Assembly: GCA_963971575.1 (NCBI GenBank)
Contig: OZ020625.1
Coordinates: 27,751,753 to 27,815,752 of the forward strand
From: Liopterus haemorrhoidalis
Taxonomy: Eukaryota > Arthropoda > Insecta > Coleoptera > Dytiscidae
Direction of reading: 5' to 3'
Length of the DNA: 64,000 nucleotides
Each line of letters starts with the position of its first letter. Within the stretch, counting starts at the first letter, position 1. This document shows positions 23,401 through 54,000 of this stretch, in pieces. The notes below the pieces were generated by a model. The model was not told where the DNA came from. It did not search any database and saw only the letters and a list, made by a program, of their open reading frames with translations. The translations under genes were made by a program, and so were the position numbers.

Positions 23401-26400
23401 AATAAAACCGTAACCGTCTTGCGGGCCCCAAAAAAATACGGGTCCTAGGCAATTACCTAGGCCAGGGCTTCTTAAACTGTGGGTCTCGACCCCCCGGGGG
23501 GTCGCCATGCTACTGAAGGGGGGTCGCAAAGATCTGCTACTTTTGGGTAATAATAAATACATTTTTAGAATCTACAAGGTAGATTCTACAATGTCGCGAT
23601 ATTACACCTACATCTACGGTCAATATTAATTTCATTAAATGGTGGGTCGTTTAAAATTTCCTAGGCTTGAAGGGGGTCGCTATATGAAAAAGTTTAAGAA
23701 GTCCTAAACCTAGGCCAAAGTCCGCCCCTGAATGAAGCAATTTTTTATTTCGGCCAGTGTTTCTCAAAGTACGTTTTGCAACTTTCTTATTTTAAATAGG
23801 GAAATAAATTTAAGATCGTAGCGCCGCGGTGGTCGATTTTGAAACGTAGGTAGAGGGTACTTAATGTTATTGTTACATAGCTGTGAAAGTAAAATTATAG
23901 GAATATATATATTTTACAATATTTTGGGAACTTGTTTTACTATTTTATCAACAAGTAACTATATACAAATGTTTATAAAGTCATTTTTTAGGGTTTTTTA
24001 GGTATGACCAAAAAACCTTTATACCGTCATTTTGTCGTGTCTGTCTGTCTGTCTGTATGTCTGTCTGTCTGTTCGGAAAAATTGTAGCCAAACGGCTAAA
24101 CCTAGAGAGTTGAAATTTGGCATGCTTATACAACTCTTCGACCCGCACATAGGAAAAACACTAAAACATCTAAAAAACATATCCCCCTAAAAATATAAAC
24201 AAATATATGCTCATCGAAAAAAAAAATATTTTTTTACAATTCTGTGTAGGGTATCAAATAAAAGCCCTTGGTACGTGGATTAACGATCAAAATTTTATTT
24301 TTGGAAAATAAATTATTTTGAGGCGATTTTTGCCAAAATTGTGCAAAAAAAAATTTGTCCCACACCCTGTAGCCCAGCTGGTTTAAACTAAAAATCTGAA
24401 AAAATTCTAAGTAATGTACATTGGTGTGAACCGGAATAGTACAACAGGAATTTTTGATCAGATTATGTTTTCGGAAAATAACGCATTTTTTGTGTTTTTA
24501 ACTAAAATATGTAAAATATTTAATCCGCTATTTAACATAGTAAGCGAGTGAACCTGCGTAGTACAGTGGTAACGTTGTCGCTTCGTGAGTTGAAACTACT
24601 GTAAGAATCTACTGTTCGAACCCCGTCAATTTTTATTTTTTCTGTTTTTTTTTTTGCATTTTTATTTAATTTAAATTATTTTGTCAAAATTTTAGTTATA
24701 GTTTGGCAAATATTGCATTTAATTTTTCAAAACGTAAATTTAATAACAAGTGGGAAGTGTTGAAATTATAATTTAATTCTATGTTTCAATGTATACGAAA
24801 TCAGAGGGGCGGGAGCTTATGACTTAAACAACCAATGGAACCCATAGGCGCAATTTTCAAAATCTTAATGAACCTTGCTATATAAAAAAATACTGCACAT
24901 ATTTAGAAACCTATATAATGATATTTAGGCATTCGAATTAAAATTAACAAAAAAATATTTTAACATAAAATTTGTTTTGGCATCCCAAATGATCATCATC
25001 CACTTACTAAATACCTGCGAAATCCTGAAATGTGTGAAAATTCACACTTTACATCAATTTTTTTTGTAAACATGAAGATTTTAGTTTACTTTTTTTAAAC
25101 AAAATATCTATCCAACTCTTCTATCAACATTTTCAAAATATATTTTATTTTAAGCACTTTTAAATTTAAATCAATACAATGTCATTTTGAAGAACACCTA
25201 GGTAATTTTTTTTATCTAAATATACATTTATGACAGCTGGTATTATGACTAAAAGTAATTTGTCATCTCAAACGTTATTTACGGAAAATATATTTCAACT
25301 ACGTATATCAAAATTAACTAACATCTGTCCAAACCAACACAAATGACATAATTGTAAAAGACTACCTGCATTATGACAAAGAAATTTTCGTTCTTTTGTT
25401 GATGACTCAAAGCAAACTGCATAAGGTCATAAAATCTTTAGAATAAATATTTTATGCTTATATTTCCTCAGAACAAAATTTATTTGTAAAATTTGAAAAC
25501 TATACACTGTACTTTAAAATACTTTAGAACAGTGTTTCTTAACCGGTGGTCCGCGGACCACTGATAGTCCTTAGCAAAATTTTAGTGGTCTGCGAAAGGT
25601 TTATAAAATATTTTTTTATGATTTTTAGGATTTTGTAGATACGACAAAAAAACCCTTTTACCGTCATTTTGTCGTCTGTCTGTCTGTTCGGTTAAAATTG
25701 TAGCCAGACGGCTAAACTAAGAAAGTTGAAATTTGGCATGCTTATACAACTCTTTGGCCCGCACATAGGAAAAATACTAAAACATCTAAAAAACACATCC
25801 CCCTAAAAAACAAACATGTGCTCATCGAAAAAAAAATATATATTTAAAAAAAATTCTGAATAGGGTATCAAATGAAAGCCCTTAGTACGTGGACTAACGA
25901 TCAATTTATTTTTGCGAAATAAATTAATTTGATGCGATTTTTGCCAAAATTGTGCAAAAAAAATAATTGTCCCGTACCCTGTAGCCCAGATGGTTTAAAC
26001 TAAAAATCTGAAAAAATTCTAAGTAATGTACATTGTTGTGAACCGGAATTGTACAACAGTAATTTTTGAAAATAATGCATTTTTTGTGTTTTTTGGTTGA
26101 CGATGTAAATATTTAATATGGTATATAAGACGAAAAACCAGTATGCCTTTATAGTGTAGTGGATAGACATCTCGCTTACTAAGCTGCAAACTACGGTTCG
26201 CTTCCTGACACAATTTTATTTTTTGTTTTTTTTTTTTGCATTTTTATTTTGTTTAAATTAATTTGTCAAAATTCTAGTTATATTTTGGCAAATGTTGTAT
26301 TTAATTTTTAAAAGTGTAAATTTAATAAAGATAGTGTTGAAATTATAATTTAATTATATGTTTGAATGTATACGAAATCAGAGGGGCGGAACTTATGACA

Positions 26401-29400
26401 TAAAACAACCAATGGAAGCCATAGGCGCAATTTTCAAAATCTTAATGAACCTTGCTATATAAAAAAAAATACTGCACATATTTAGATACCTAAATAATGG
26501 TAATAGGCATGCGAATTAAAATTAACAAAAAAATATTTTAACATAAAATTTGTTTTGGCATCCCAAATAATCATCATTCACTTACTAAATATCTGCGAAT
26601 CCCTGAAATGTGTGAAAATTCACACTTCACATCAATTTTTGTAAGTTATCATTGTCTCATTTTTTATGGTTTGAAGTGGGCTTTTCCTAAACAAAATGAT
26701 CAAAAGTCTCATTTAATCGGTAAAAGTTATTAGGATTGAAAATATAGGTCCGCCCAAACCAAAGAAACAAGCTATAGTTACTTATTTCTGACAACCTAAA
26801 AAAATTAAACTCCCATTTAATTCCGCTTAACCCAAAGAAACTATAGAACCCCTGATAACAAAAATACAATATCCTTTAGTAAGCATTTGTTCAAGAGATT
26901 ATACTTGCCAACGTAGCATGTTGTAGGGAAGCTATTCAACATTATAACAATTATATTTAGTGGGTGCACACCCCTGTATATTCAAGGTGAAGGCGTGGGA
27001 ACTAGGGTGATCGAAAACTAGGGGACGATCTGATAGATTAAATCCATAACGTGATGGGAAAAAAGTGTCTAGTAATTTTAGGACACTTGTTGGTTCAAAA
27101 CAATTTTGAATTTGATTAAAATATGGCCATATAAATTATTAATAACTTTATTTGGAGGCCTAAAGAGGTCTAAAGTTTTATTTGAGTTTTTTTGGGTGTT
27201 GTTTAAGTGTGCTTAATTGAGTTAATAGGTGCACAATATGGACATTTTCAAGTAGATAATTGTAAAAATGGCTTAAGTTATTTGAGTCGAGGTCATACTT
27301 ATATGGAGACTAGCTGGTTACTCTTGGCTTAAGACCATATTTTAAATCATATTTATTAATTATATAACTAATAAATACATATTTAGTAATATGTACCCTT
27401 TTATTTATACCGACATATTAAAGGATTTCATACATTTTGAAATAAATTAAAATATCTCCAACTTTTTGCTTTAATTTGTTATACTTAGGGTCCAAACATA
27501 GTTAAGTTAAGATATTATTCAAGAGAAACCACTATTCCATATATACGAGGGATGTTTCCTAAATTCTGGGAATTGTGCCATAATTAAATTACCCAGAACT
27601 TATAGGCAATGTTATTGGTGCCAGACAAGTCTTGACATGTTTACGCATCTATCTAGTGCAATATTGTTCAGTCTGATTTAGGTGTTCGACTGATATAGAC
27701 GCGTTTTTATAGCACTGTTTTTGTAACCATGGAAGACGCAGCAAAATCTCAATGAGCAATAATTTTCTTTTTGTGAAAGGAAGGTGTGAAAACATCAGAA
27801 ATTATTCAGCGTCTGCAAGGAGTATTTGGTGAGTCTACAGAATCCAAAAGTACTGTTTATCGGTGGATCGTTTTTAAAACCGGTAGAACATCACTAGAAG
27901 ACGATCCACGCAGTGGGCGCCCAAGCACGTCGGTAAATGAAAGAAACATTACTGCCGTCAAAGACCTACTGTAAGAGGACAGGCGAATGACTATTCGTCA
28001 AATTAGTGTACCCCTAGGGATAGGTACACAAGTTCATGACATCTTGCATGATTGTTTGGGCGTTAGCAAGGTTTCGCCGCGCTGGGTGCCAAGGCTGTTG
28101 GGACCAGAACAGCAACTCAATAGGAAAGTTCTTTGAGGACGGCTTAAAAAAATTAGTTTATCGTTGGGATAAATGTATTCAGTTAAATGGAGATTATGTT
28201 GAAAAACTACATTGTAATATTGACGAAAATGAACAAAATAATAAAAATTATAGCTAAATTCCCAGAACTTTGGAAACATCCCTCGTATATTTTTTATTTC
28301 CCCTAGACCTTGCCGCGTTTAGGGTATTAACAATTACAAACAATTACAATTACAAAGAAATTAAAAACAAAATAACATACAATACAATGGCTATTTTACA
28401 ATATTTTTTATTGCATTTCTTTGTTCTTCTTTCAGTATCCCTATCTTTCTTCCTATTCTCCTTCCGGTTTCCCTCGCTTATATCTTGCTTTCTTCCCTCC
28501 AGTTCTCTCGCCCATCTTTCTCCCTTGCCTTCCTCATTAATCAGTTCCTTTATCTTCTCCTCCCAGGCTGTCATCTCTCTACATCTCTTCGCTAAATGCT
28601 CCAAGGTTTCCTCTTCTTCCTTGCACATTCTACAATGCTTGTCCTCTAGCATTTTTTTTTTTTCGGAAACCAGTATTTTTTGTTGGGGCGGGCTCATGTT
28701 TAAAGGATTCCACACACCAAAGAGGCCGCGGTGGCGACCGCGGTGGCGGCCACGGTGGCGGCCACGGTAGCGATCAGGTCTCCTCACACTAACGCGGTGG
28801 GAGTGGCGGTAGCGGTAGCGATCAGTTAGTGAATCACGGTATATAGTTGTATGATAATATTGGACCTTGCTTGGGTTATTTCATTTTTCCCCTTTGGAAT
28901 GTTAAAATTTAAAATTCCAACAATGAAACCATGGAAACGAATGACATATGTCAAACTTAAATTAATTTTCTTACATATTTTAATGACAAAAAATAAATAA
29001 ATGGGATATTTGTAGTAAGAATGACACAAAAAATCAAAATATAAAGAAAATGACATTTTAAAATGATATTAACCTTAACCAAAAAATGTTTGTTGCAAGT
29101 ATGATTTACAAAGTTTAAACAAAACGGCTGAAAAGCATTATTTAAACGATGAAAGTAACTAGATTGCAAAATCTAGTTCCGCCTAATCGTTTGGAACAGA
29201 CTTTACTATCAATTTCCAAAACTTTTCCTATTTCGTCTCACACTTTATTTATTTTCCTAATATTCTTGTAATCAGGATGTGCTAAGTCATACAAAATTAA
29301 ATGATCCTTTACTGATCTATGATTTTTTCTGTTAAATTATCTATTTTCGACATTATTTTCTTAAATATATTCACTCTGTGGTATATAAACAATGAATATC

Positions 29401-32400
29401 GCGCGGCCTAACGCAACTTGTCGAGTTTGGCCGCCAGTGTTTGGTGATCGCCAGACTGAACGCTGCATTCGGCGCCGTTCTCAGATAGCGGAACGCTTGT
29501 ATGTACGTGGTCTCATTGTATTGTATAGGTTGCGTTAGGCCGCTCCATTATCGCCACCGTGGCCGCCACCGCGGCCGCTTTGGTGTGTGGAATCCTTTAT
29601 AGACCTGTATAGTTTTTTTTTAATGAATATTAAGGAGTTTTTATAAATAAAATTATTTTCTGCTAACAATGACATCATAAAATTTCTCACGATTTTATAT
29701 GATTTTTTTCAATATTTTTTAATGTACTTCATAACAGGAAAAATACGAGGTAAAGTACAATGCCAAAGTTTCAACCTGCTATTATTAAAACCCGTATCGG
29801 ATATAGCCAATAAGGTTGTTTGAAATTTAAATAATTTCGCAGATGATCAATTCACAAGGTGAACTACTGTATCTGGTTACCTCCTGTAGAATTTCCAACA
29901 AGGGAATCGAGTTTAGAAAAAAATTAGTCACTTTTGTCAACTAATTTTAATTGCTTTGTTCGTGGTTGAAGTTTCTAACAAGGTACCAATTGGAGGTTGC
30001 ATCATTTAATCGGCAGATAATCGGTAATCGGCTATATCGACCATATTCCCGATACTAACTATAGTAAGTACTAACTATATATAAGTACTAACTATAAATA
30101 AGTATACTTGTTTTTGTTAATCCTTTAAGTAAGGTGCGTAATGTGAAAAACTAATCCCTCCGGCTATGGGTTGACACGCCTAGCTATATCACTTCTATTG
30201 TCATTTTATGAGTTCCCTAACTTTTATTATTTTATTGCGATCTTCAAAACTAATTTAGTACGGACTATACACTGTTATACCCTTTTCACACTAGATCTTT
30301 AAGACGAGTGAACTTAAAGTTCACCGATGTTTAAGATCGGTATGCTTTCACACTTGATGTTTAAATCTCTGGTGCTGTCATCAGCTACAGTAATTTTGTC
30401 CTTAAGTTACCGTCATGAAATTACCAGTTTTGAACTGTCTGCGCAGACGCACATTTTGAATTATTATCAACAAATAAGAATATTTCATTTCATTCTACAA
30501 TAAAGGCACTACAATAAAGAATATATTACACCTGTATTAACATGTAAGTCGATACATTTTATCTCAATTATTGTAGCTCTGTATTTTATTAAACACATTA
30601 TTAAAATAAATAATTTTATTATAACAATAAGTATAAACTTCTTATAACGTCCATATAATACAGTATTCTTGTTTATGATAATATAAAATGTTGACAGCAC
30701 AAATTCAAGGAGAATTTTTTTATAACAGAAATTAAGTTGGCAATGCGGGCGAAGTTTAAGACGCAGATCTCTGTCTTAAACATCGCTTGTATTTAGACGA
30801 GGCCATACGGTTTCACATTAGCGTTTAAAGATACATTCACTTTAACATCCGATTTTAAAGATCTAGTGTGAAAAGGGTATTAGTGGCGTTTTCTATGCAC
30901 ATCTACATTTTTAGGGTTTTGTAGGTATGACCAAAAAACCCTTATACCGTCATTTTGTCGTCTGTCTGTCGGTCTGTCTGTCTGTCTCTCTGTCTGTAGG
31001 ATATCAAATGAAAGCCCTTGGTACGTGGATTAACGATCAAATTTTTATTTTTGCAAAATAAATTATTTTGAATTGATTTTTGCCAAAATTGTGCAAAAAA
31101 TTTTTTGCCCCACACCCTGTAGCCCAGATGGTTTAAACTAAAAATCTGAAAAAATTCTAAGTAATGTACATTGGTGTGAACCGGAATAGTACAATAGAAA
31201 TTTTTGATCAGATTATGTTTTTGGAAAAAAACGCATTTTTTGTGATTTTTTGTTAATAATGTACACAAGTTATAGCTTTGTAACACGCTACACTGAAACG
31301 TGTATGCTGGTGTAGTGGTTTTGATGCTGGCTTTTCACCCAAGTAACTCGATCCGAAAGGGTTCGCACCCTGCGAGAAGAGACCATATTATTTTTTGTTT
31401 TTTTTTTTAAATTTTTATATTGTTTAAATTATTTTTTCAAAATTCTAGTTATATTTTGGCAAATGTTGCATTTAATTTTTAAAGCGTAAATTTAATAACC
31501 AGTGGAAATTGTTTAAATTATAATTTAATTCTGTTTCAATGTACACGAAATCTGAGGGGCGGAACTTATAATAACCAATGGAAGCCATAGGCGCAATTTT
31601 TAAAATTCTTAATGAACCTTGCTATATATAAAAAAAAATACTGCACATATTTAGAAAACTAAATAATGGTATTAGGCGTTCGAATTAAAATTAACAAAAA
31701 AAATATTTTAATATAAAATTTGTTTTGGCATCCCAAATAATCATCATTCACTTACTAAATACCTGCAAAACCCTGAAATGTGTGAAAATTCACACTTCAC
31801 ATACATTTTTTTTATATTGTTTAAATTATTTTTTCAAAATTTTAGGTATATTTTGGCACATGTTGCATTTAATTTTTAAAAGCGTAAATTTAAGAACCAG
31901 TGGATATTGTTTAAATTATAATTTAATTCTGTTTCAATGTACACGAAATCTGAGGGGCGGAACTTATAATAACCAATGGAAGCCATAGACGCAATTTTTA
32001 AAATTCTTAATGAACCTTGCTATATAAAAAAAAATACTGCACATATTTAGAAACCTAAATAATGGTACTAGGCGTTCGAATTAAAATTAACAAAAAAAAT
32101 ATTTTAATATAAAATTTGTTTTGGCATCCCAAATAATCATCATTCACTTACTAAATACCTGCAAAATCCTGAAATGTGTGAAAATTCACACTTCACATCA
32201 ATTTTTTTTTTCATTCTATCGCACACAAAGCCTTCTATTCGAATGCAAAGATTCTCATTTTCCAAGTCTAGATGTCAATATTAACTCTAGTGTGATAAGG
32301 CCTTTAAGCCTGTAATACATGATGCGATTTCTCGTTTTGAATCTCGTACGATTTATCGTACAAGAATTATTGTATCGTGTACTACAGGATTTTCGTACGA

Positions 32401-34924
32401 GATCTTGTACGATATTGAAAACCATCCAATATTTATGCTCCAGACCTAAAATATTGTATAGAAATGAACAGATATCGACGCAGTAGATTATTGCGCATAG
32501 TCACGTGACCGATACCGTTAGGAATAATTATCGTACGATAAATCGTACGAGATTCAAAACGAGAAATCGCATCATGTATTACAGGCTTTAGACTTAATAT
32601 TTTTACATTTTATTTAGGTAAACGGCCTATTTGTTTGTCGGTGGAACTCTAATGCCAACAATTACGGAATAAGTTCATAAATCGGAAGTCGAACTGGTTT
32701 AGACACGCCATTAGGCGTCTATTGTGCAGCCACTACCTCAAAAATACAGATGCCGCGAATATGGATGCGATTGTCTGTCTGTTTTTTTGAGAAAAAATGT
32801 CCTAGACATCTAAGAAGTTGGTCGATTAACTAACTAACCAAGAGGAAATCTTCAGGTAGTCTCTTATTCTGTCAGGTTTACTTGTAATTTTTTTAACACA
32901 GCTGCTATCCGAAATATCCCATTGTGTTAAGGTTAGATTTATCAAAAAAACATGTCTATTGATTTGTCGGTAACAGCTGGGATTTAGATTTATCAAAAAA
33001 TTTGATAATAGGTTTAGAAAATAAATCTGGCAGGGAACTGTTGTCATTCGCTAAAGGCTATTCCAAACGATTAGGCGGAACTAGATTTTGTAATCTAGTT
33101 ACTTTCATCGTGTGAATCGTGCTTCTTGGCCGTTTTGTTTAAGCTTTGTAAATCATACTTACAATAAACATTTTTTGGTTAAGGTTAATATCATTTTAAA
33201 ATGTAATTTTCTTTACCAGGTCTACAAGTATGAAATGCGGATTTTTTTCAAACTTGCCGGGCAAACAGAGTGTATAGTTCAAAGTTTCAACACATATGGC
33301 GTTTTGTTAAGTTATCATTAAGTGTCAAATGCGTATAGGTTATAATTTGAAAAGTGATCATATAGTTTTGTTTTACTGTGTTAAAAATGTCAAATTTTGT
33401 GCCAAATAAAGAGCATTCGCGGACAGTACTACTGTTTTGTTTTCATTTTAAAAAAACTGCTGCTGAATCATACCGACTGCTTTGAGAAGCTTATGGTGAA
33501 TATGCTCCATCGCAAGATACGTGTGAACGATGGTTTCGGCGTTTAAAAAGTGGTGACTTTGATCTTACAGACAAAGAACATGGAAAACCTCCAAAAAAAT
33601 ATGAAGATACAAAATTGGAAACATTGCTACAGGAAGACGATAGTCAATCACAAAAACAACTAGCAGAGCAGTTAGGCGTTAGTCAACAAGCTGTTTCCAA
33701 TCGCCTACGAGAGATGGGTAAGATCCAGAAAGTCGGCAGATGGGTTCCACATGCATTGAATGAGAGGCAGATGGAAAAACGCAAAAACACTTGTGAAATT
33801 TTGCTTGCACGATACAAAAGAAAGTCTTTTTTGCATCGTATCATTACTGGCGATGAAAAATGGATTTATTTTGAAAATTCCAAACGCAAAAAATCATGGG
33901 TGAACCCAGGTTCACCATCCACATCAACTGCAAGACCGAATCGCTTTGGCGAAAAGACAATGCTCTGTACTTGGTGGGACCAAAAGGGTGCGGTCTATTA
34001 TGAATTGTTAAAACCTGGTGAAACAGTTAATACCCAACGCTACCAACAACAACTGATCGAATTGAGCCATTCGCTGCTCATAAAACGACCAGAATACGAA
34101 AGAAGACAGCACAAGGTAATCTTTCTTCGAGATAACGCTCCATCACATAAGGCAAAAGCAACACATTGGAGGCACTCAAGTGGGAAGTGCTACCCCATGC
34201 CGCTTACTCACCAGACTTGGCCCCTTCAGATTACCACTTGTTCACATCGATAGGTCACGCACTTGGCGAGCAGCACTTTTGTTCATATGAAAATGTGAAA
34301 GAATGGCTAGATGAATGGTTTGCGGGGAAAGGGGAAGAGTTCTACTGGCGAAGTATTCACAAATTGCCTGAAAGATGGGAAAAATGTATAACTTCTAATG
34401 GAGCATACTTTGAATAAATAAACTTTTACTGTTCATTTGAGTTTAATGTGTTTTATTTAAAAAAAATAAATAAATCCGCATTTCATACTTGTAGACCTGG
34501 TATATTTTGATGTTTTGTGTCATTCTTAATACAAATTTCCCATTTATTTTTTTGTTATTAAAATATTTGTAAAAATATTTTATTTTTGACATAAGTCATG
34601 TTTTCATGGTTTCACTGTTGTAATTTTAAATTTTCACATACCAAAATTACCATAGTTATTTTTGTCGTCTATACTATTGAATTTGTATTGTACGCGTAGT
34701 AATAAACGTTTGAAATCTATCCTTATTTCGTTACGCAAAATTTCCGGGAATGCCCAGCTGGAACACAAAGGTCCTTCGTTTCCTTATTTACAATAATTAA
34801 CTCTTCTGTCTTTCTTATGAAAACGTAAGTCTTCACCTCTGATGAGTATTTTGCATCCTTATTTATCTTACGTTTTTAGGGTTTTGTAGGTATGACCAAA
34901 AAACCCTTATACCGTCATTTTGTC

Positions 34925-34962
<38 letters not shown>

Positions 34963-40900: not shown

Positions 40901-42055
40901 AATTTTAAATATTGGTAATTCGCTACATCAATAGAATATTATTATACGAGTTTTATAAGATGATGTATTGTTACACGAGCGAAGCGAGGAGTGCTCCAAA
41001 GTAACAAGTGTGACAATACGTCGTATAAAACGAGTATAATATACTATTTTTTAAACTTTGCATCACTTACTTAAAAAATAGGTATGAAGTGTGAATTTTC
41101 ACACATTTCAGGGTTTCGTAGATATTTAGTAAGTGACTGATGATTATTTGGGATGCCAAAACAAATTTTATATTAAAATATTTTTTTTGTTAATTTTAAT
41201 TGGAACGCTTAATACCATTATTTAGGTTTCTAAATATGTGCAGTATTTTTTTTATATAGCAAGGTTCATTAAGAATTTTAAAAATTGCGCCTATGGCTTC
41301 CATTGGTTGTTACAAGCTCCGCTCCGCTGATTTCGTGTACATTGAAACAGAATTAAATTATAATTTAAACAATTTCCACTGGTTATTAAATTTACGCTTT
41401 TAAAAATTAAATGCAACATTTGCCAAAATATAACTAGAATTTTGAAAAAATAATTTAAACAATATAAAAATTTAAAAAAAAAAAAAACAAAAAATAATAT
41501 TGTCTCATCTCGCAGGGTTCGATCCCTTTCGGATCGAGTTAGTTGGGTGAAAAGCCCGCGTCATAACCACTAGACCAGCATACACCTTTCAGTGTAGCGT
41601 GTTACAAAGCTAAAACTTGTGTACATTATTAGCCAAAAAACACAAAAAATGCGTTTTTTGTCAAAAACATAATCTGATAAAAATTCCTGTTGTACTATTC
41701 CGGTTCACACCAATGTACATTACTCAGAATTTTTTCAGATTTTTAGCGTAAACCATCTGGGCTATAGGGTGTGGGACAAAAATTATTTCGCATCAAAATA
41801 ATCGCATCAAAATAATTTATTTTGCAAAAATAAAATTTTGATCGTTAATCCACGTACTAAGGGCTTTCATTTGATACCCTACTCAGAATTTAAAAATAAT
41901 TTTTTTTTTTCGATGAGCACATATTTGTTTATATTTTTAGGGGGGTATGTTTTTTAGATGTTTTAGTATTTTTCATATGTGCGGGTCAAAGAGTTGTATA
42001 AGCATGCCAAATTTCAACTCTCTAGGTTTAGCTTGGCTACAATTTTTACCGAACG

Positions 42056-42094
<39 letters not shown>

Positions 42095-45000
42095 GACAAA
42101 ATGACGGTATAAGAGTTTTTTGGTCATACCTACAAAACCCTAAAAATAAACGCTCGAAAATGTTCACGATTTAATTAATTTTTTGCTGAGATTTTTTCAA
42201 GTTACTGTAAACACAAATAGCGCTCGTACGTCTGAGTATGTATACCGTTAAAAATGTCAAACTTTACGATAGAAGCGTCAGTTGCCAGATGGCAGCACTA
42301 GTTTAGCGCAATTCCGAAGTATGAGGCAACCCTGCAAATATAAGGTTGAAATATCAGCAAAAATGATTATGAGAAAATATTCCACTCTGTTTAATGCTGT
42401 TTTTAATAAAATATATATTTGGGGAGCAATGGTGAGAGCTATCTATAAACGAAGTATCTCACTTATTATTTACTTAACATCAAAAATATATACAAAAGAG
42501 TGGTTTCGAATAAAGAAACGATTATTTTCTGTTCTACTTGAAACTGAAAAATCTTACTTATTATTTACGTTACAACAAAATATTCATTACAAAAACGGGT
42601 ACTCCAGCTAGTATTATTAATAACTATGAAATGTAAGTAATTCGTTAACAAATTATACAAAAAAAAAATCAACAAATTATCAAAAAAAGCTGGTAAATAA
42701 TGCCCTATGCCTCTCGTAGGAGCTAAAAACACCATTTATCATAGGTCGTACATAATGTGATAAATCATATTTAATATGTGGGAAACGGAAACGATTGGAT
42801 AACCTTAACAATTTTGCAAAATTACCAAAACTAAGGTCAAAACTCTATAATTACAAGACCATTAACTTAAAGAAAAAGCAGAATTTTTCCCACAACTCAT
42901 AAAAATTCTATAAAATAACTTAAAAATATGAAATAACATGTGAAAATATAAAAGAAATAACTGTTTTTTGAATCTCGTAATAAATTAATTTTTTGAAATA
43001 AGTATATGAGTTGAATCTGTTTGACATCACCTTGTGTTTTTTTGAATGTTTTTGGTCGTTGATCGTTGGGTAACCTTCATGTTTTGATGCCAGAAGCAGT
43101 TCTTATTATCGTTTTTGTGTCGGCAAATGCCACACAGACTTCAGAAAGAAAGTATAGTGTGTTTGGTGAGATGCCCCAGGAAAAATACGGTACTATCACA
43201 GGGACGTACTCAGAGTATTTAACGTACTTGGTAAACAAGCTCTTCGCACGATGGATCTGTTCAATAGGGGAAAAATTTTAAGATCGTAGCGCCACGGGGT
43301 TTTTTGAAACCATTCTAAATGAGATACCACTTGACATTTACTAGTAAATAATAGCGAAAAGTGTATCAAAAAACGACAAAAAATAAATAATTGTTTGGGA
43401 TTTTCTGATTTTGTGAAGTGACATTACTTGTAAACATCTAAAATACTACATTTTGTGATCTGGTATTAAGTTATGGCGGTTTTCCATTGTCGATTATTTT
43501 AACTATATTGGGGGAAATAATAATTCCCGTGTTGTTTACCAAGGGGTAGAAATCTACAATGCTGGGCATATAATATTGTGTGGAGTCACTGAAAAAAACA
43601 GAGAGTTCATAAAGATTTATGCATTATGCCTACAAACTTGTGCATTACAAACCCACACACAATAGCAGGAATTTTCAAGATATGCGATAATAAATACAAA
43701 ATTGAAAATATTTTTTGTAGTCACTATCATTAAAATGTAATTAGCAAACTTTGATATAAGGGCTCACTTTTTTTCCAATTTTTAAATTGTTTATCTAAAC
43801 ATCGCGTCGATTCCTAACCTCTTGCTTTCCCAATTTTGTTTCGAACCGTACGGTGTCTGATATTAGTGGAAACAAATGAAACGATATTTCCGGGTTTCTT
43901 CTTTGCAATGAATTGCACATAGGCACACAACAATATGTATTATACATTTTTCAATGATTATAATAAAACTTTAAAAACAAACTTCATACAAAACCAATAC
44001 ACAAAACGAAATGTTATCTGATGTACACAAGTTCATGAAACGCTCACCAGATGGTAGGGTGCTTAGCTGCAAATCCCTATACCAACCAATCAAGTTTTAA
44101 TTATTTGAAATCATCCGGATACCACGAAAAGTCAAATTGTGTTCTATTTCATCCAGCAGAACGGACTGTTTTCTTTTTCTAGTACATCACTATCCTTGCC
44201 GACAAATAACGTTATAGTCCGTACCAAATTAGTTTTGAAGATCGCAATAAAATAATAAAAGTTAGGGAACTCATAAAATTACAATAGAAGTGATATAACT
44301 AGGCGTGTGATACCCTTTTCACACTAGAACTTTAAGATCGGATGTTAAAGTGAATGTATCTTTAAACGCTAATGTGAAACCGTATGGCCTCGTCTAAATA
44401 CAAGCGATGTTTAAGACAGAGATCTGCGTCTTAAACTTCGTCCGCATTGCAAACTTAATTTCTATTATAAAAAAATACTCCTTGAATTTGTGCTGTCAAC
44501 ATTTTATATTATCATAAACAAGAATACTGTATTATATCGACGTTATAAGAAGTTTATTCTTATTGTTATAATAAAATTATTTATTTTAATAATGTGTTTA
44601 ATAAAATACAGAGCTACAATAATTGAGATAAAATGTATCGGCTTACATGTTAATACAGGTGTAATATATTCTTTATTGTAGTGTCTTTATTGTAGAATGA
44701 AATGAAATATCCATATTTGTTTATAATAATTCAAAATGTGCGTCTGCGCAGACAGTTCAAAACTGGTAATTTCATGACGGTAACTTAAGGACAAAATTAC
44801 TGTAGCTGATGACAGCACCGGAGATTTAAACATCAAGTGTGAAAGCATACCGATGTTAAACATCGGTGAACTTTAAGTTCACTCGTCTTAAAGTTCTAGT
44901 GTGAAAAGGGTATTAGCTCTTCGCACGATGGATCTGTTCAATACCAACCAATCAGGTTGTAATTATTTGAAATCATCCGGGTTCCGCGAAAAGTCAAAGT

Positions 45001-48000
45001 TTTATTTCATCCAGCAGATCGGACTGTTTTCTTTTTCTAGTACATCGCTATCCTCGACGAAAAATACTTGGTCACTTGTAAGGGTAGCCAAAGAGCCGTA
45101 TTTACTTGCATCAAGGCCCGAGTCGCAAACGATATCTGCGCGGGAAGAGGGCTTCCCTAACTAAAGTCCATTCTACATTATATTTTTTTCAATACTTTTT
45201 TCAATATTATCCAACTCTGACGTCATTTCAATTTTGATACTACAGAATATAGTGGGGGAAAAAATAAGAGACAGCGATACTTCCATCTTTTATTACTTTG
45301 TGATACTCTTCACTGCCAACTTAAAAAAATTTAGGTTCAGGTGACGGAGAACAGTTTGGTTATAGAACCAATTCTAGTAACCAATTTATAAATATTGTTT
45401 AATTGTGCTAAGTTTATATTTAATTATATGTTCTAAATAAACTTCTTATCAACTTAATAAACTTCTAAAAGTTATTTTTGTCGGAGCAAAAACCGGAACT
45501 GAACCGAAAAAAAAATATCGGTTTATTTCGATTCAGGTAATGCTTATGGGAGTGACCTAAAATTTAAAATACATTTTATATAAGAGTTTTTTTTTAAACT
45601 GATGAGCAGAAAAAATCGTATTTTTTTAAACTGATAAGCAAAAAAAACCGGTTCTATTATTTCGGGGTGGGGGGATGAATGCCCAGAACCCCCCTCCCTG
45701 GCAATTGGTATTATTATTATAAAATAAGGAATAAAATGTTGTTCTAAATTATAGTAGAAGATAAATTTCTAATACAAATAAAAGCATTTAAAAATTTACC
45801 ACTCGGAACTGAACCGAAAACCGAAAAAAAACGTTATTTTTGCCGGAACGAAAACCGGAACCGAACTGATATTATTTTTTTAATTGAACCGAAACAAAAA
45901 CCGAAACGAAAAAAATAACGGTTCGAAGCCCTGGTTGGTACGATTGAGAAGTATACAACTGTCATCCAAAAATTAGACCGGAGGTAGTTTTGAAAATAGT
46001 GTAGTTCGTAGTGTAGCATCGAAAGTTGGAAGGCAGTATTGTGTTTCACATTATACTTTTTACGTCAGTACTACGCAAAAAATCTGTAGTGCTTCGCAAA
46101 AAAGTATAATGTAGAACGAACTTAACAAAACTAAAAAAATCAGCTGTAGCTACAAAGTACTTGTTTAATTTATGCTGCTTTATTAAAAAATGTCTCAAAT
46201 AAAAGTTGTTCGTTATTGTTTTTATAGCAATTTTTGTTAAATAATTTTTTTGATTACTCTGTTGTGAAATATTCACGAAAATCTTAAAACCGACACGAGT
46301 AAACTCCCATTTCTAGGAAACCGGTTTTTACAAAAAGTTGATCAACTCGTGCCGTTGATGTCAAAAGATTAAAAATGAAGTTTCATAAAAATCCTTTTAG
46401 CTGAATTTGTTCTGCACGTGTACACGGACAGACGGACGGATGGACAGACAGACCGACAGACATCATGCTAAAAATAATCAAAACGTTATGTAGGGACCTC
46501 AATTCGTGGAGATCCATCGAAATCTCGAAATGTCAAAATCGGTATGATCACAATACCTCCCTTATATATGTTGGCGGTCGGTAAAAAGTACTGTTAAAGG
46601 AACTTCATGGTACACTAAAATATGAACTTTTAGTGTACCGTGAAGCCCCTCGCTTTTCGTGTTAATTATTTACACTTCTTTTTTGGGTAAATTTAGTATA
46701 AAGTTTACACTTACATACTGGTTAAATTATAGTGTTAAAAAATAAATAGTGTTAAAGTGGTGTTCATTTTAACACTGAAAAAGTAATATTTCATAGAAAT
46801 GTGAATTTGAAACAATCTGAATAAATGAAGATTTACGCGGTGATTTGGTTAAAAAAATTTACTTTTTTTAAATGAAATTTTTAACACTAAAATTTTAACC
46901 AAACTGAGAATGAACTTAAGAACACTTAAGAATTTTTTGCTGTATACAAACCAGGGATGGGGAGTCGGAGTCGGAGTCGGGAGTCGGGAGTCGAGGAGTC
47001 GAAGCTTTTTGGAGGAGTCGGAGTCGGAGTCGGGAGTCGAAAAAAGTTATCGACTCCCGACTCTTTGATTAAATTTTTATCAAGAATGAGAACAAACCGA
47101 AAACGAAAGCAAAATAACCATATTACTTTAATTTTTTAAAACAGGGAAATAGGAAAATAAAATTAAAAATATTCAATCCCGAATTTATCTGGTTTCCTTC
47201 ATGCTTTCCAATTTAAAATTTGATTAATCCTACTCGTATTAACAGATTAATACGATGAGGCAGTAAAGATATTTTGTTTTTACTCATACCGGATTTTTAT
47301 TTTCTCAAATTGTAACGAGATTTCTGATGGCAGCCAAAATCTAAATGTTGAAAGGAAAAAGTGACATATTATGAAAAATAAATTGCAGGCTATTCTAAAC
47401 GTTTAGGCGGAACTAAATGGGAATTTCGTTCTTTTAGGTTGTCACGAGAAGGGACCTTGCTGGGGTTATTTAATTTTTTTCGTTGGCAGGTGAAAATTAA
47501 AAATTCCAATAGTGAAACCATGGAAACGAATGACAAATGTCAAAAATAAAATACTCTTTCTTATTTTAATGACAAAAACTTAATGTGAAATTTGTATTAA
47601 GAATGACACAAAAAATCAAAATATAAAGCAAATGACATTTTATAATGATATTAACCTTAACCTAAATATGTTTATTGTAAGTATGATTTACAAAGTTTAA
47701 AAAAACGGCCAAAATACACGATTCAAACGATGAAAGTTACTAGATTGCAAAATCTAAACGTTTAAAATAAGCTAAACGTTTGGAATAGCTTATATATAAA
47801 ATAATTTTAAAATTATATTTTTTAAACTAATAACATATATTTGAAAATTTGTTTTAAAAATGACACAATAAGTCAAGATGAAAGGAAAATGACTGTTTTT
47901 TTAGATTAAGTGGAACTAAACATTGAAATATACTAACTCTTAACGCTTGAATGAGGCATTTTTAGGGTTTTGTAGGTATAACCAAAAAACCCTTATACCG

Positions 48001-48010
48001 TCATTTTGTC

Positions 48011-48064
<54 letters not shown>

Positions 48065-51000
48065 TCGGTAAAAATTGTAGCCAAACGGCTAATCCTAGAG
48101 AGTTGAAATTTGGCATGCTTATACAACTCTTTGACCCGCACATAGGAAAAATACTAAAACATCTAAAAAACATACCCCCCTAAAAATATAAACAAATATG
48201 TGCTCATCGAAAACAAAAATATTTTTTTTAAATTCTGAATAGGGTATCAAATGAAAGCCCTTAGTACGTGGATTAACGATCAAATTTTTATTTTTGCAAA
48301 ATAAATTATTTTGTTGCGATTTTTGCCAAAAATGTGCAAAAAAAATTTTGTCCCACACCCTGTAGCCCAGATGGTTTAAACTAAAAATCTAAAAAAATTC
48401 TAAGTAATGTATATTGGTGTGAACCGAAATAGTACAACAGGAATTTTTGATCAGATTATGTTTTTGGAAAATAACGCATTTTTTGTGGTTTTTGGTTCAC
48501 AAAGTACAAAAGTTATACCAATGTAAGACACTCACATGCATAGCGTTCGATAGCTACATGCGTTAAAGCGCTCTTAAACTGACTGGAAAACGAAGGGTTT
48601 CGAGTTCGAGTACGGAGTGAATTTTATTTTTTTTGTTTTTTTTTGCATTTTTATTATGTTGAAATTATTTTGTCAAAATTCTAGTTATATTTTGACAAAT
48701 CTTGTATTTAATTTTTATGAGCGTAAATTTAATAACCAGTCTTATTATATGATTAACAGACGATAAATTATTTTAAAAATATCGTTCATTTTGCCGTGAT
48801 TACTACAAAGTAAAATTTGTCCTACACACTCAGCATACCGCCTTCACTTATTATATACCTGCGAAACCCTGAAATGTGTGAATATTCACACTTCACATCA
48901 ATTTTTTGTTTAACAAAAGCCCACTTCGATCGTTAAAAGATGAACTTGTGATAACTTAAGAAAATAAAAAGTCGATTTAGTTCCGTTTAAATATTTAAAA
49001 CAGGCTTTACGATTTACGAGTGAAAGGAGTCGGGAGTCGGAGTCGGGAGTCGGAGTCGGTCTTAAAAAATACCGACTCCGGAGTCAAGAGTCGGGAGTCG
49101 GTAATTTTTCTACCGACTCCCCATCCCTGATACAAACATGAACCCTGTAAAAATTAAATTGATTTATTTAACAATAAATTTTGAATGAACATATTTACGG
49201 GTCAAAATTATAAATTTATAAATTTGTATAATTATATAAACATGGCATAACATTGCATAATATATTTTTTTTATGATTTGTATGTATAAATTTCTAAAAA
49301 ATATTTTCACTTTTATAAGATCTTGGATTTCTTTTTAAATATTTCAATTAAGGTATATAAAATTTCCGAAGTCCTATACTTTCTCTTATTACTAAATATA
49401 AATAAAACCTTATAAGGACATCAATAGGAAAAAGTTTGAAATTTTATCCAAATCTTAGAATTTTAGATTTTTTTTTTTTGGTATATATTTTTTAGGAAAG
49501 GTCATTAACCTTTCTCAAACATTATTAAGGCGATTGTGACTAAATATATGATGATTACTGGAGAAAAATTCACTTCAGTTGTTAAAAAATGGATGTGAAG
49601 TGTGAATTTTCACACATTTCTGGGTTTTGCAGGTATTTAGTAACTGAATGATGATTATTTGGGATGCCAAAACAAATTTTATGTCAAAATATTTTTTTAT
49701 GAATTTTAATTCGAATGCCTAATACCATTATTTAAGTTTCTAAAGATGTGCAAGATTTTGAAAATTGCGCCTATGGCTTCCATTGGTTGCTTAAATCATA
49801 AGCCCCGCGCTCTGATTTCGTCAAACATAGAATTAAATTATAATTTCAGTACTTACGCTTTTAAAAATTAAGTGCAACATTTACCAAAATATAACTAGAA
49901 TTTTGACAAAATAATTTAAACAAAATTAAAATACAAAAAAAAAAAACAGAAAAAATAAATTTAACAGGATTCGAACTCTAGTTTGCAAATTACAAGGCTC
50001 ATGACAAAACCAACTACGCTATTAGAGCTACTAATATAGTGTGTTACATAGCGAATTAAATATTTAACATGTTTTAGTTAACAACACAAAAAATGCGTTA
50101 TTTTCCGAAAACAATCCGATCAAAAATTCCTGTTGTGCTATTCCGGTTCACACCAATGTACATTACTTAGATTTTTTTCAGATTTTTAGTTTAAACCATC
50201 TGGGCTACAGGATGTGGGACAAAATTTTTTTTGCACAATTTTGGCAAACATCGCATCAAAATAATTTATTTTGCAAAAATAAAATTTTGATCGTTAATCC
50301 ACGTACTTAAGCCTGTAATACATGATGCGATTTCTCGTTTTGAATCTCGTACGATTTATCGTACAAGAATTATTGTATCGTGTACTACAGGATTTTCGTA
50401 CGAGATCTTGTACGATATTTAAAACCATCCAATATTTATGCTCCAGACCTAAAATATTGTATAGAAATGAACAGATATCGACGCAGTAGATTATTGCGCA
50501 TAGTCACGTGACCGATACCGTTAGGAATAATTATCGTACGATGAATCGTACGAGATTCAAAACGAGAAATCGCATCATGTATTACAGGCTTAAGGGCTTT
50601 CATTTGATACACTACTCAAAATTTTTAAAAAATATATTTTTTTTTGATGAGCACATATTTGTTTATATTTTTAGGGGGGTATGTTTTTTAGATGTTTTAG
50701 TATTTTTCCTATGTGCGGGTCAAAGAGTTGTATAAGCATGCCAAATTTCAACTCTCTAGGTTTAACCGTTTGGCTACAATTTTTACCGAACTGACAGACA
50801 GACAACAAAATGACGGTATAAGGGTTTTTTGGGCATACCTACAAAGCCCTAAAAATCAGGTAATGACAACTTACAAAAATAAAAATTCCATTTAGTTCCG
50901 CCTAAATGTTTGGAATAGCCTATAATAAGTCAATTTTGAAACTGCCTCGTACATTTATTTTAAAACCGAGTTCAAATCTTTCGTAATTGAATATATTTTG

Positions 51001-54000
51001 TATTTATCAATACGGAAGCTTATCGTATTTATTTAAAAATATTTATCACTATTTGTATGAAAATCACGTCTATACATGTTTAGTGACATAAATATATGTA
51101 ACCATTTATTATCGCATTGTTAAAATAAATATATTATTTTCTTTTGTATTATCAATGATCAATACTGTTTAATAAAAACAATTGGAACAAAATAAATTCT
51201 TTTAATCCGGGCATTAAAGGATAGGGAAACATAGGGATGCGTCACTTAAGAGATGGGTACCTATTATAAGGAAAAATAATTGATGTGAAGTGTGAATTTT
51301 CACACATTTCAGGGTTTTGCAGGTATTTAGTAAGCGAATGATGATTATTTTGGATGCCAAAACAAAGTTTATATTAAAATATTTTTTTTGTGAATTTTAA
51401 TTCGAACGCCTAATACCATTATTTAGGTTTCTAAATATGTGCAGTATTTTTTTTTTTATATAGCAAGGTTCATTAGGAATTTTAAAAATTGCGCCTATGA
51501 CTTCCATTGGTTGTTATAAGTTCCGCCCCTCTGATTTCGTGTACATTGAAACAGAATTAAATTATAATTTAAACAATTTCCACTGGTTATTAAATTTACG
51601 CTTTTAAAAATTAAATGCAACATTTGCCAAAATATAACTAGAATTTTGAAAAAATAATTTAAACAATATAAAAATTTAAAAAAAAAATAATAATAATATT
51701 GTCTCTTCTCGCAGGGTTCGATCCCTTTCGGATCTAGTTACTTGGGTGAAAAGCCAGCGTCAAAACCACTACACCAGTATACACGTTCCAGTGTAGTTTG
51801 TTACAAAGCTATAACTTGTGTACATTATTAGCAAAAAATCACAAAAAATGCGTTTTTTCCAAAAACGTAATCTGATCATAAATTCCTGTTGTACTATTCC
51901 GGTTCACACCAATGTACATTGCAAGAGCAATGTTTTTGGCGCCCTTGGCAAATAAAAAAACCAGTGGCGAAGAGAGACCTCCGCTAGACTTGCCCTCCCA
52001 TAAAAAAATAATTTATTTTTTTAATTTAAAAGAAGATTTAGGTAAATCTTCAAAAATACATCAAATTATGTCCTATACAAATTTTTGTCCAAGGCAAGTT
52101 TAATAACTTCCGTTTCCGGTTTTGGATTTTCATAAAAAACAATAGGGTTCTTCCCAATTAATAGGAGATTTTTTTAGTACCAGAACGAACTCTCTAAGCT
52201 AAACCGTTCTTGAGTTATCGTGTATACACACAGACACACACACAGACACACGCACATACGGACGGCACTTCGAAAATAGGTTTTTTGGATTCCCTGGACC
52301 TTGAAACGTGGTCATCAGTCAAAATCTCAACATCGAAAATTTTCGCGATTACAATACTTGCCCCTTATATATTATGGTCGGGCAAGTAAAAAGGTCAATC
52401 TCAAAATCCAAGTGATGAGCAAAAAAAAGGTCCTCACCTTATAAACTCCAAGTGATGAGCAAAAAAAAAGGTCCTTGACCATAATTTGCGCCCCCTACAA
52501 AAGGCGTCAGCGCCCTTTTCCTTAGTGCGCCCGGGGCCTTCGCCCCCTCCGCCCCCCTTACTCTGTATAAAATGGTACGATTTTAAAATTGATTTTTATC
52601 AAGTTAAGGATTCCACACACCAAAGCGGTCGCGGTGGCGGCCACGGTGGCGATAATGGAGCGGCCTAACGCAACCTATACAATACAATGAGACCACGCAC
52701 ATACAAGCGTTCAGCTATCTGAGAACGCCACCGACTGCAGCGTTCAGTCTAGCGATCACCAAACACTGGCGGCCGAACTCGACAAGTTGCGTTAGGCCGC
52801 GCGATATTCATTGTTTATATACCACAGAGTGAATATATTTAAGAAAATAATGTCGAAAATAGATAATTTAACAGAAAAAATCATAGATCAGTAAAGGATC
52901 ATTTAATTTTGTATGACTTAGCACATCCTGATTACAAGAATATTAGGAAAATAAATAAAGTGTGGGACGAAATAGGAAAAGTTTTGGAAATTGATAGTAA
53001 AGTCTGTTCCAAACGATTAGGCGGAACTAGATTTTGCAATCTAGTTACTTTCACGTTTAAATAATGCTTTTCAGCCGTTTTGTTTAAGCTTTGTAAATCA
53101 TACTTGCAACAAACATTTTTTGGTTAAGGTTAATATCATTTTAAAATGTCATTTTCTTTATATTTTGATTTTTTGTGTCATTCTTAATACAAATATCCCA
53201 TTTATTTATTTTTTGTCATTAAAATATGTAAGAAAATTAATTTAAGTTTGACATATGTCATTCGTTTCCATGGTTTCATTGTTGGAATTTTGAATTTTAA
53301 CATTCCAAAGGGGAAAAATGAAATAACCCAAGCAAAGTCCAATATTATCATACAACTATATACCGTGATTCACTAACTGATCGCTACCGCTACCGCCACT
53401 CCCACCGCGTTAGTGTGAGGAGACCTGATCGCTAGTCGTATCGCTACCGTGGCCGCCAACGCGGCCGCTTTGGTGTGTGGAATCCTTTAAACTCCATTGT
53501 TCATAAAATATTTTTAATGCAGTTTTCCAAAAATATTTTCCTCAACATTCCCCACGTGAATTTCGTTTTTATCAGTATTGCATACATATGTAGTCTTAAA
53601 AATAGCGATTAGATAACAAACAACCTTTAAAAATTTCAAATTTATCTGTAATTGATATTGAAAATTTTCATGTTATTATTTACTTAATTCTTGTTTTTGT
53701 ATACATAGTATGAATCATTAAATAATAATGTAAACCAGTGATTCCCAACCGAAACGCGCTTGTTTGTTTAGGGCAGTGGTATCCAATTTTTTTTTTCAAT
53801 TCTTTCGTGGGGGTAGTTCAAGCCCGTGTGTCCCAAAATTGAAGTCTTGTAATTATTTATTTGTGTAATTTTAATGTGTGTGGAGAAGGTTGTACGGCTT
53901 GCGGACATAAATGATACAACTAGATCTAGCTGACCAGTTTCGAAATATTTTGTTTCTTCATCAGAGCTGATATAAAATGTACGGTCATTGTGAGATATAG

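Follow-up and report, generated by a model that had tools for sequence, protein, structure and literature searches.

The locus considered here raises the question of how a repeat can keep nearly the same left and right halves from copy to copy while the tRNA-like segment between them, called the cassette below, differs widely. We examine this for the eight copies, R1 to R8, found in a stretch of 64,000 nucleotides from Liopterus haemorrhoidalis (the window), together with their relatives in the 1.02 Gb host genome. The reading that we favour, with a probability of roughly 0.6, is that the repeat is a HINE with an ancient tRNA-derived Pol III-type cassette, which has diversified and been reshuffled between element lineages. 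The cassette, lying between two T-rich runs, would then descend from a tRNA-like Pol III unit with a homologous leader, an A box, a variable body, a B box and an oligo-T.

The repeat, a very common element of about 1.1 kb that encodes no protein, is a HINE, i.e. a DINE-1-like non-autonomous Helentron, as seen from its subterminal inverted repeats (subTIRs), its GTCT microsatellite, its 3′ palindrome and its insertion into T-runs without duplication, and its anatomy agrees with the published HINE hallmarks. An earlier note on this DNA had described eight copies with common halves around a central segment, and all eight are confirmed. The two left-half blocks named there have six and seven matches, compared to 0.03 and 0.00 expected, and AGGGTTTTGYAGGTAT has 22 matches at up to three mismatches, compared to 1.4 expected. 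SubTIRs are present near both ends; in R4 the 20-nt arms (34874–34893 and 35907–35926) are 90% complementary, and subTIRs, some with mismatches, are seen in the remaining copies that retain both ends. After the 5′ subTIR of R4 (AGGGTTTTGTAGGTAT, 34878–34893, plus strand) come an inverted repeat that is complementary in part and then the microsatellite, which is of the GTCY type and appears as (TCTG)n after AAAAAACCCTTATACCGTCATTTTGTCG, the arrangement of DINE-1. At the 3′ end of R4 (35907–35946, plus strand), the subTIR (35907–35922) is followed by the palindrome (35923–35946), and then by ACATCAA and a T-run. The inverted ends and 3′ palindrome reported before are thus real, the stem-loop TGTGTGAAAATTCACAC being present in all nine aligned rows, with one changed base in R6.

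T-runs of 2–7 and 5–13 nt flank the insertions on the two sides in all 25 copies read (30 loci given). The window also contains an empty site that is paralogous to the insertion site of the copy L017 (43264–43518, minus strand; 251/262 in the joined-flank alignment). The insertion there lies within a T-run, and at this one clean empty site a target-site duplication is absent. A second empty site, for L008, is less clear, and L005 is a head-to-tail tandem with one T-run in common. These features are not those of the TIR element proposed earlier, which is dismissed in favour of a HINE on account of the missing duplication, the insertion in a T-run and the palindrome on one side. A canonical Helitron (5′ TC, 3′ CTRR, insertion between A and T) is likewise out, because the ends are T-runs and insertion occurs in a T-run. 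Another option considered was a tRNA-derived SINE, in which a tRNA head at the 5′ end is combined with a 3′ tail and a target-site duplication. The A and B boxes and the tRNA ancestry are indeed shared with such elements, but here the tRNA-like part is central (about 520 nt inside the element in R4), no duplication is seen at the L017 empty site, and the ends are of the rolling-circle kind. The IMG/VR, phage and plasmid scans gave no match. Two 18-mer matches in bacterial contigs, only 18–24 nt long, look like chance.

The eight copies were delimited by alignment, R1 being placed by subfamily assignment as well, and the window cassettes measure 149–167 nt with the bordering T-runs counted in. 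On the plus strand, R1 (23984–25065) carries an R1-type cassette at 24495–24655, with an A-box-like motif at 24559–24569 and a B-box-like motif at 24613–24623, and R2 (25622–26640) carries an R2-type cassette at 26089–26237 (A-box-like 26152–26162, B-box-like 26195–26205). R3 (30908–31813, plus strand), which has a 5′ internal deletion, contains the R3-type cassette at 31245–31408 (A-box-like 31308–31318, B-box-like 31360–31370). It is followed in tandem by an extra right half (31810–32211, plus strand) that begins at the T-run just 3′ of the cassette and is joined to the terminal T-run, i.e. a jump from T-run to T-run. R4 (34873–35959, plus strand; cassette 35386–35550, A-box-like 35449–35459, B-box-like 35503–35513) belongs to a very young subfamily, with a mean pairwise flank divergence of 0.36–0.39% for 30 copies. 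R5 (41073–42146, minus strand) has an R3-type cassette at 41474–41640 (A-box-like 41567–41577, B-box-like 41515–41525). In R6 (47959–48907, plus strand; cassette 48488–48644, A-box-like 48551–48562, B-box-like 48603–48613) the right half is partly replaced, and its subfamily is young judging by the cassette. R7 (49584–50855, minus strand; cassette 49935–50084, A-box-like 50011–50021, B-box-like 49967–49977) is interrupted by another element at about 50309–50594, and R8 (51272–51920, minus strand), which is 5′-truncated, has an R3-type cassette at 51678–51839 (A-box-like 51766–51776, B-box-like 51714–51724). An Rfam match to MIR8007, scoring below the gathering threshold, is a hairpin element inside R7.

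Among the window copies, pairwise identity is 86–97% in the left flank and 87–96% in the right flank (75–76% for R6), against 41–67% between cassette types and 90–94% within R3/R5/R8. As had been claimed, the segment lies in the middle and has sharp borders, and the types differ in it far more than in the flanks. That R3, R5 and R8 share one type also holds, but R1, R2, R4, R6 and R7 are not single sequences without relatives: the R1, R2 and R7 cassettes are mutually 66–67% identical over 96–118 nt, and those of R4 and R3 71% over 96 nt. When the majorities of six subfamilies are compared in 25-nt bins, they differ by 0–6% in the left flank and by 33–53% in the cassette; to its right follow a 12% bin and then 0–9% with one 20% bin, all but two flank bins staying at 0–9%. 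At the cassette border, the difference rises from 1–6% to 35% inside one bin. Of the 75 sites that are diagnostic between R1 and the subfamily B2, the cassette holds 51, the part to its right 18 and a left-flank stretch of 500 nt the other 6. Neutral decay of one module is out, as cassette and flank divergence are far from uniform. Within subfamilies, the ratios of cassette to flank divergence are 1.56 (R4), 1.52 (R1), 0.48 (R3), 0.69 (R7), 0.92 (R2) and 2.65 (B2), values biased by the choice of copies by module or by flank. At this level cassette and flank divergence are about equal, so the description of the module as fast-changing fails here, and ongoing hypermutation of the cassette is unsupported.

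We now turn to exchange. Each window type has many relatives in the host genome. The R2, R3, R6 and R7 modules have at least 40 scored matches each, from 609–1377 first-look candidates, and the relatives of R1 and R4 were gathered in separate searches. The multi-copy subfamilies are discrete, and each as a rule carries a cassette of its own. The left flank tracks the cassette type in 87/91 rows, as do both right parts (87/91; two of the rows repeat window copies), and in the R4 subfamily each of the 20 copies selected through the left flank and fetched retains the R4 cassette. Agreement of flank and module, proposed together with neutral decay as a ground for refuting exchange, is therefore largely found, while the divergence is far from neutral and uniform. 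Such agreement indicates that recent exchange has been rare. It does occur, however. Of 30 copies chosen by an R1-like left flank (R1 and 29 others at 97–98% identity), 11 carry another cassette type, and three copies are mosaics of two subfamilies: L049 is of R1 type on the left up to −225 and of B2 type from −86 onward, L060 has a B2-type tract from −259 to −86 with cassette and right part of R1 type, and L056 has patches of B2 type on the right. The switch points fall between −225 and −86 in L049, and at −309 to −259 and from −86 to the cassette in L060; being in the flanks, at most one of them could be at a T-run. PHI-like tests give p values of 0.004–0.014. Among 187 Fisher triplet tests for mosaics the best p is 1e-4, a result that is weak and biased by private changes, and in small trees cassette and flanks agree in part.

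One can instead suppose that no exchange took place, and that the cassette of each master lineage evolved 10–20 times faster than its flanks, by diversifying selection (e.g. for escape from small-RNA silencing) or transcription-linked mutation, with the boxes kept. The concordance of cassette type and flank diagnostics in most copies is what this predicts, and it also agrees with the homologous leaders, the mostly fixed A-box offset and the linkage of most types through intermediates (see below), as well as with the presence of some related types in close flanks (the R7 and B2 cassettes are 80% identical, with left flanks 1.9% apart). However, the cassette is not consistently faster within subfamilies (0.48–2.65), the 1–6% to 35% step is abrupt for a mutational hotspot, and unlinked bodies occur in near-identical left flanks, that of L041 being 1.9% from B2. 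Furthermore, module and left-flank distances are uncorrelated among the window copies (r −0.40), and the mosaics exist. We consider this explanation unlikely, if still worth serious attention. Less probable, and quite doubtful in our view, is that the cassette acts as a lineage-specific identity element, a Pol III-transcribed hypervariable RNA that is swapped by recombination between near-identical bodies and whose diversity is kept by selection, e.g. for escape from small-RNA silencing or as a copy-control or incompatibility RNA. RNAs of the latter kind occur in rolling-circle plasmids.

Judged by sequence, the cassettes have the layout of a type 2 Pol III promoter, in which the A and B boxes are spaced much as in tRNAs and an oligo-T serves as terminator. 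The joint score of the two boxes is above all 300 dinucleotide shuffles in seven of the eight window copies; for R6, the weakest of the eight, it is reached by 14/300. It should be pointed out that 225-nt stretches of left flank, which are longer than the cassettes, also score 18–19 jointly in 7/7 copies, compared to 19–21 in the cassettes. Box-like motifs are retained in all 14 types compared (A 10–11/11, B 8–11/11, the lowest B value being that of L041 and L017.1), with mean matches of 10.8 (A) and 9.6 (B); in 50 shuffled sets with boxes picked alike, the means do not exceed 8.9 and 7.4. Across these types, and uncorrected for the choice of the boxes by consensus, identity is 67–70% in the boxes against 33–40% in neighbouring tiles, except for two leader tiles at 61% and 45%. 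The box motifs have been kept while the body has drifted to near-chance similarity, and in 86/102 rows the distance between cassette start and A box is 63 or 64 nt. Two young and successful types have imperfect boxes, R4 with one A-box mismatch and R6 with the weakest window copy, which suggests that a strong Pol III promoter is not essential for spreading.

With default settings, ARAGORN makes no tRNA call in 104 cassette rows (the R2 and R7 types being represented by the window copies only), and at -ps90 it makes one antisense call. Calls at still more relaxed settings (3/8 cassettes at -ps80 with introns, 8/8 at -ps60) are worthless, as shuffles yield 2–14% and 30–50%. No tRNA match is obtained from Rfam, either for the whole window (E up to 5) or for the single cassettes of R7, R2, R8 and R1 (E up to 10). 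The single-cassette searches returned one chance match to another family (E 9.7). Similarity to tRNAs beyond the boxes was assessed with a box-preserving test. It is found for R6, which resembles tRNA-Thr/Ile (majority 0/200, window copy 3/200, L019.1 1/200; clearest in the relative L019), for R2, which resembles His (0/200), for L041, which resembles Arg (2/200), and for L017.1 (1/200). R3 is borderline (Val/Glu; 4/200 and 9/200), and the bodies of R4, R1, R7, B2 and L044 have none by this test. Isotypes suggested by mere inspection (R1 Gly, R4 Gln, R7 Thr, R2 Val, R6 Lys, R3 Glu) mostly failed it and are not upheld. No close source is found among 20 host tRNAs (Lys, Thr, Arg, Ala, Cys, Phe and Ser, without Gln, His, Val, Glu and Ile).

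A single homology network takes in the leader of every one of the 14 types, with 50/91 pairs above z 3.5, and the bodies of 11 types are also linked in one, those of R3, R6 and L041 standing apart. The latter three may be replacements, and separate tRNA origins for them (Thr/Ile-like in the case of R6) are at best arguable. The networks rule out six unrelated captured tRNAs as the general case, and the repeated capture of tRNAs suggested in the earlier note is not the main story. That different host tRNA genes were captured independently, again and again at the same site, would explain the three unlinked bodies and the resemblance of R6, R2, L041 and, borderline, R3 to different tRNAs. Against this stand the two networks, the mostly constant A-box offset, the lack of a recognisable tRNA cassette even in the R4 subfamily, less than 1% diverged, and the lack of a close source among the 20 host tRNAs, so that we give it little credence. 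Most improbable of all is that the boxes are relics of a tRNA-like or SINE-like segment inserted in an ancestor HINE, a spacer that is no longer constrained and accumulates changes between flanks held constant by transposition needs: the absence of tRNA calls, the imperfect boxes of the young R4 and R6 types, and the published passages in which DINE-1 and Cg_HINE tolerate different central sequences and DINE-1 works without Pol III sites would agree with it, but the boxes are conserved relative to most neighbouring tiles in 14 types, and constraint would be needed on all of the roughly 900 nt of flank, although subTIRs and stem-loops are the only parts that a published passage mentions as possibly required.

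Returning to the reading of an old, diversified and reshuffled cassette, the HINE would presumably be mobilised by a Helentron through rolling-circle replication. It may be that the cassettes became diverse during a long history in different element lineages, under selection for a Pol III promoter, and that recombination or template switching placed them between near-identical flanks. The bordering T-runs are the probable exchange points, given that the element also inserts into T-runs and ends in one, and that the R3 tandem jump led from one T-run to another. In the case of R6, and perhaps also of R3 and L041, another tRNA may have replaced just the body. The likely benefit to the element, though this is a guess, would be either a transcript made by Pol III or an open state of the chromatin at the cassette.

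It is already known from published passages that Helentrons tolerate foreign central sequences. In DINE-1 and HINE elements, as described in passages of PMC2374699 and PMC4067079, the centre consists of tandem repeats that differ between species, whereas the present element has a tRNA-like Pol III-type unit in many versions within one genome, and a different subTIR sequence. According to a passage of PMC2374699, DINE-1 of D. melanogaster, and also the recently inserted copies that are discussed in it, are without Pol III promoter sequences and tRNA similarity, and a Pol III-type unit is thus no general need of HINEs. The group 2 Cg_HINE elements of the Pacific oyster similarly have related flanks around unrelated central repeats, which the passages of PMC7492417 interpret as independent incorporation, recombination being discussed for double arrays; the cassettes described there are, however, satellite arrays and not tRNA-like units with conserved promoter boxes. 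In the Arabidopsis tRNA-Cys cluster, the passages of PMC10701932 describe annotated Helitrons overlapping tRNA genes and discuss tandem arrays, but the tRNA genes are intact, the case is one cluster, and three Helitron programs gave no reliable prediction. Cassandra TRIM retrotransposons, in the passages of PMC7215508, universally carry a Pol III RNA gene-like segment (5S), but they are LTR retrotransposons with a 5S-type promoter, and the segment is conserved rather than variable. Among the open-licence papers listed, none reports a HINE whose cassette is tRNA-derived, of Pol III type and so divergent between groups with near-identical flanks.

With subfamilies, mosaics and empty sites together in one genome, the system can be used to test the exchange of internal DNA by rolling-circle elements. 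It raises the question whether non-autonomous DNA transposons gain from Pol III promoters, and the cassette can mislead the annotation of tRNAs and SINEs.

The copy L101 is a curious chimera, in which, by eye, a piece of about 20 nt of an R2-type body is fused to an R7-type leader.

Judged from its sequence, the element represented by copies R1-R8 in the window is a DINE-1-like HINE, i.e. a non-autonomous Helentron. Its 5' portion consists, in order, of an oligo-T, a subTIR (AGGGTTTTGTAGGTAT), a partly complementary repeat and a (TCTG)n microsatellite. The interior has a variable centre flanked by two conserved blocks, and the 3' portion runs from a subTIR through a palindrome to a terminal oligo-T. 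The HINE and DINE-1 hallmarks used for comparison come from excerpts of PMC4067079, PMC2374699 and PMC7492417. When the ends were read by exact motifs, both were legible in 25 of the 30 fetched copies with a cassette of the R4 type, each of them bordered by a T-run at either end. At L017, a copy elsewhere in the host genome, the joined flanks align to positions 43518-43264 of the window, a continuous stretch, with 251 matches in 262 positions; at this empty-site junction the T-run is shorter and there is no duplication. Another copy, L005, has a second one behind it in head-to-tail order, with one T-run common to both. R3 is followed by an extra right half (31810-32211) starting at the T-run immediately 3' of its cassette, which is a direct sign of a jump from T-run to T-run. 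At a further locus, L077, the R4-type cassette is broken by an insertion of ca 216 nt with inverted ends.

The earlier note had described eight copies with conserved halves around a differing central segment, and alignment and pairwise identities bear this out. Outside the central segment the left flanks are 86-97% identical and the right flanks 87-96%, with R6 as the exception (75-76%). Across types the central cassettes, bordered by the T-rich stretch GCATTTTTTGTGTTTTT on one side and a second oligo-T on the other, share 41-67% identity; those of R3, R5 and R8 share 90-94%. In R6, the right half also contains an unrelated sequence (48741-48842) flanked by conserved proximal and terminal parts.

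A-box-like and B-box-like motifs were indeed found within the central segment of all eight copies. Their joint score exceeds that of all 300 shuffles in seven copies and that of 286 of 300 in R6. Control stretches of 225 nt from the left flank reach joint scores of 18-19 as well, so a lone box match means little; the near-constant position of the boxes and their conservation across types count more. The conserved left block (24364-24383 and equivalents) contains a full A-box-like match, TAGCCCAGATG, in six of the seven copies tested, with TAGCCCAGCTG as the R1 version and a weak B-box-like match (8/11) 53 nt further on. No tRNA genes were called in the cassettes by the programs at default settings.

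Conservation of the boxes was assessed over 14 cassette types: the six of the window, B2 (a second type found with R1-like left flanks) and seven single copies. Mean pairwise identity is 67% in the A box and 70% in the B box versus 33-40% in adjacent leader and body tiles, except for two leader tiles at 61% and 45%. The 61% tile, which is T/A-rich and lies 34-44 nt 5' of the A box, may be a TATA-like element. The mean box scores are 10.8 (A) and 9.6 (B) of 11, while 50 shuffled sets reach at most 8.9 and 7.4, respectively. All 14 leaders belong to a single homology component, and 11 of the inner bodies likewise form one; the bodies of R3, R6 and L041 stand apart. The likeness to tRNA beyond the boxes was examined for 16 cassettes against 25 tRNAs plus 20 fetched host tRNAs, using counts per 200 shuffles uncorrected for the number of cassettes. 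It is strongest for R6 with its relative L019 (Thr/Ile, 0-1; window R6 alone 3), R2 (His, 0), L017.1 (Gln, 1) and L041 (Arg, 2 and 4). R3 (Val/Glu, 4 and 9), L005.1 (6), L048 (8), L112 (11) and L062 (15) are borderline, and no such similarity to these tRNAs was found for R4, R1, R7, B2 and L044. The simplest reading is that the cassettes would be one tRNA-derived ancestral unit, long diverged, plus up to three body replacements, for which R6 is the best case. The cassette of the second copy at L019 clusters with that of R6.

We now turn to the host genome (1.02 Gb). The R4 subfamily is very young: 30 full-length copies have a mean divergence of 0.36% in the left flank, 0.57% in the cassette and 0.39% in the right flank. 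For a query with the R4 left flank alone, the best 40 of 2181 candidates were scored; 27 lay outside the full-length list and 20 were fetched (a script extracted 18; L064 and L077 were read by eye), and all 20 have the R4 cassette. The corresponding R1 query (best 40 of 1410 candidates scored) gave 30 loci, namely R1 itself and 29 with 97-98% identical left flanks. Sixteen of these carry the R1-type cassette (R1 counted), eight carry B2, three are close relatives (L036, L044, L047) and three carry others (L041, L048, L062). Module-only queries gave at least 40 scored matches each, and among the matches listed, query excluded, the modules recur at 97-98% (R3), 98-100% (R6), 93-98% (R7) and 85-89% (R2). 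The window types thus belong to discrete multi-copy groups. Host contig C1 measures 246.8 Mb versus 28-71 Mb for C2-C16 among the contigs listed, and it is perhaps a sex or fused chromosome.

The divergence between these groups is step-like. Compared over 25-nt bins, the six majority sequences for subfamilies R1, R2, R3, R4, R7 and B2 (8-17 rows each, for R4 12 of its rows) differ by 0-6% in the left flank and by 33-53% in the cassette; to its right they differ by 12% in the first bin and then by 0-9%, apart from one bin at 20%. R1 and B2 differ at six diagnostic sites in 500 nt of left flank and at 51 in the cassette, as defined with seven irregular rows left out. Within subfamilies, the ratio of cassette to flank divergence is 1.56 for R4 (30 of 49 rows), 1.52 for R1 (17/17, R1 itself twice), 0.48 for R3 (16/17), 0.69 for R7 (10/10), 0.92 for R2 (8/9) and 2.65 for B2 (8/8). 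These ratios carry a sampling bias, R3, R7 and R2 having been sampled by cassette and R1 and B2 by left flank, but even so they show nothing resembling the contrast between groups.

Flanks usually keep to their own cassette, with telling exceptions. Against four subfamily majorities, 87 of 91 rows have a left flank that fits the subfamily of their own cassette, and for both right parts the count is again 87 of 91, a somewhat circular comparison as the references were built from the same copies (two rows, L003 = R4 and L033 = R1, duplicate window copies). On the other hand, L049 is a mosaic with five R1-type left sites followed by B2-type states at -86, in the cassette and to the right; in L060 the tract from -259 to -86 is of the B2 type but the cassette and right side are of the R1 type; and the right side of L056 shows patches of the B2 type. 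R1 itself has scattered sites in the B2 state. PHI-like tests within the window give p 0.004-0.014. In seven window copies the cassette distance is uncorrelated with that of the left flank (r -0.40). In a different set of seven it is correlated with right-flank distance (r 0.82, p 0.01), a correlation that is gone with one copy per type (r 0.16, p 0.38). Taken together, linkage, mosaics and distances indicate that the cassette and right half tend to travel together, left ends being swapped occasionally; that exchange is located exactly at the T-runs we infer. In L101, ca 20 nt of R2-type body are fused to an R7-type leader without a left flank, upstream of an R7-type cassette, possibly a filler or template-jump product.

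Element lineages have probably long carried their own cassettes, while flanks would have been homogenised, or cassettes moved between similar flanks, by recombination or by template switching in rolling-circle replication. A less probable but plausible reading, the main rival, is that cassettes evolved faster in master lineages and were not exchanged; the mosaics and the within-subfamily ratios speak against it. That the boxes are weaker in R4 and R6, two young groups, argues against a strict need for the putative Pol III unit, as does DINE-1, described in print as lacking Pol III sites. Among the publications listed that link Helentrons or Helitrons to tRNA or Pol III, compared through excerpts of PMC4067079, PMC7492417, PMC2374699, PMC3630058, PMC8010984, PMC10701932 and PMC7215508, none describes a HINE with a tRNA-like cassette. 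The element is of a known kind, here in a form that may not have been described before.

The window sequence is A+T-rich and contains several other features. A hairpin-like MITE (AAGCCTGTAATACATGATGCGATTTCTCG...) is present in two 99% identical copies (32304-32591 and 50309-50594), one of them within R7, and is the origin of a sub-threshold Rfam MIR8007 match. A mariner-like transposase remnant lies at about 33390-34420, with an open stretch at 33615-34253 (Transposase_1, PF01359, E 1.3e-24), and a second one at 61466-61906, on the minus strand, has a Mos1-type HTH_48 domain (PF17906, E 1.3e-16). Such mariner-type domains, along with the A+T richness, would fit an insect as host. Finally, a weak glycosyl hydrolase family 20 match on the minus strand (13070-13462; PF00728, E 4.3e-5, just above the cut-off) is perhaps an exon.
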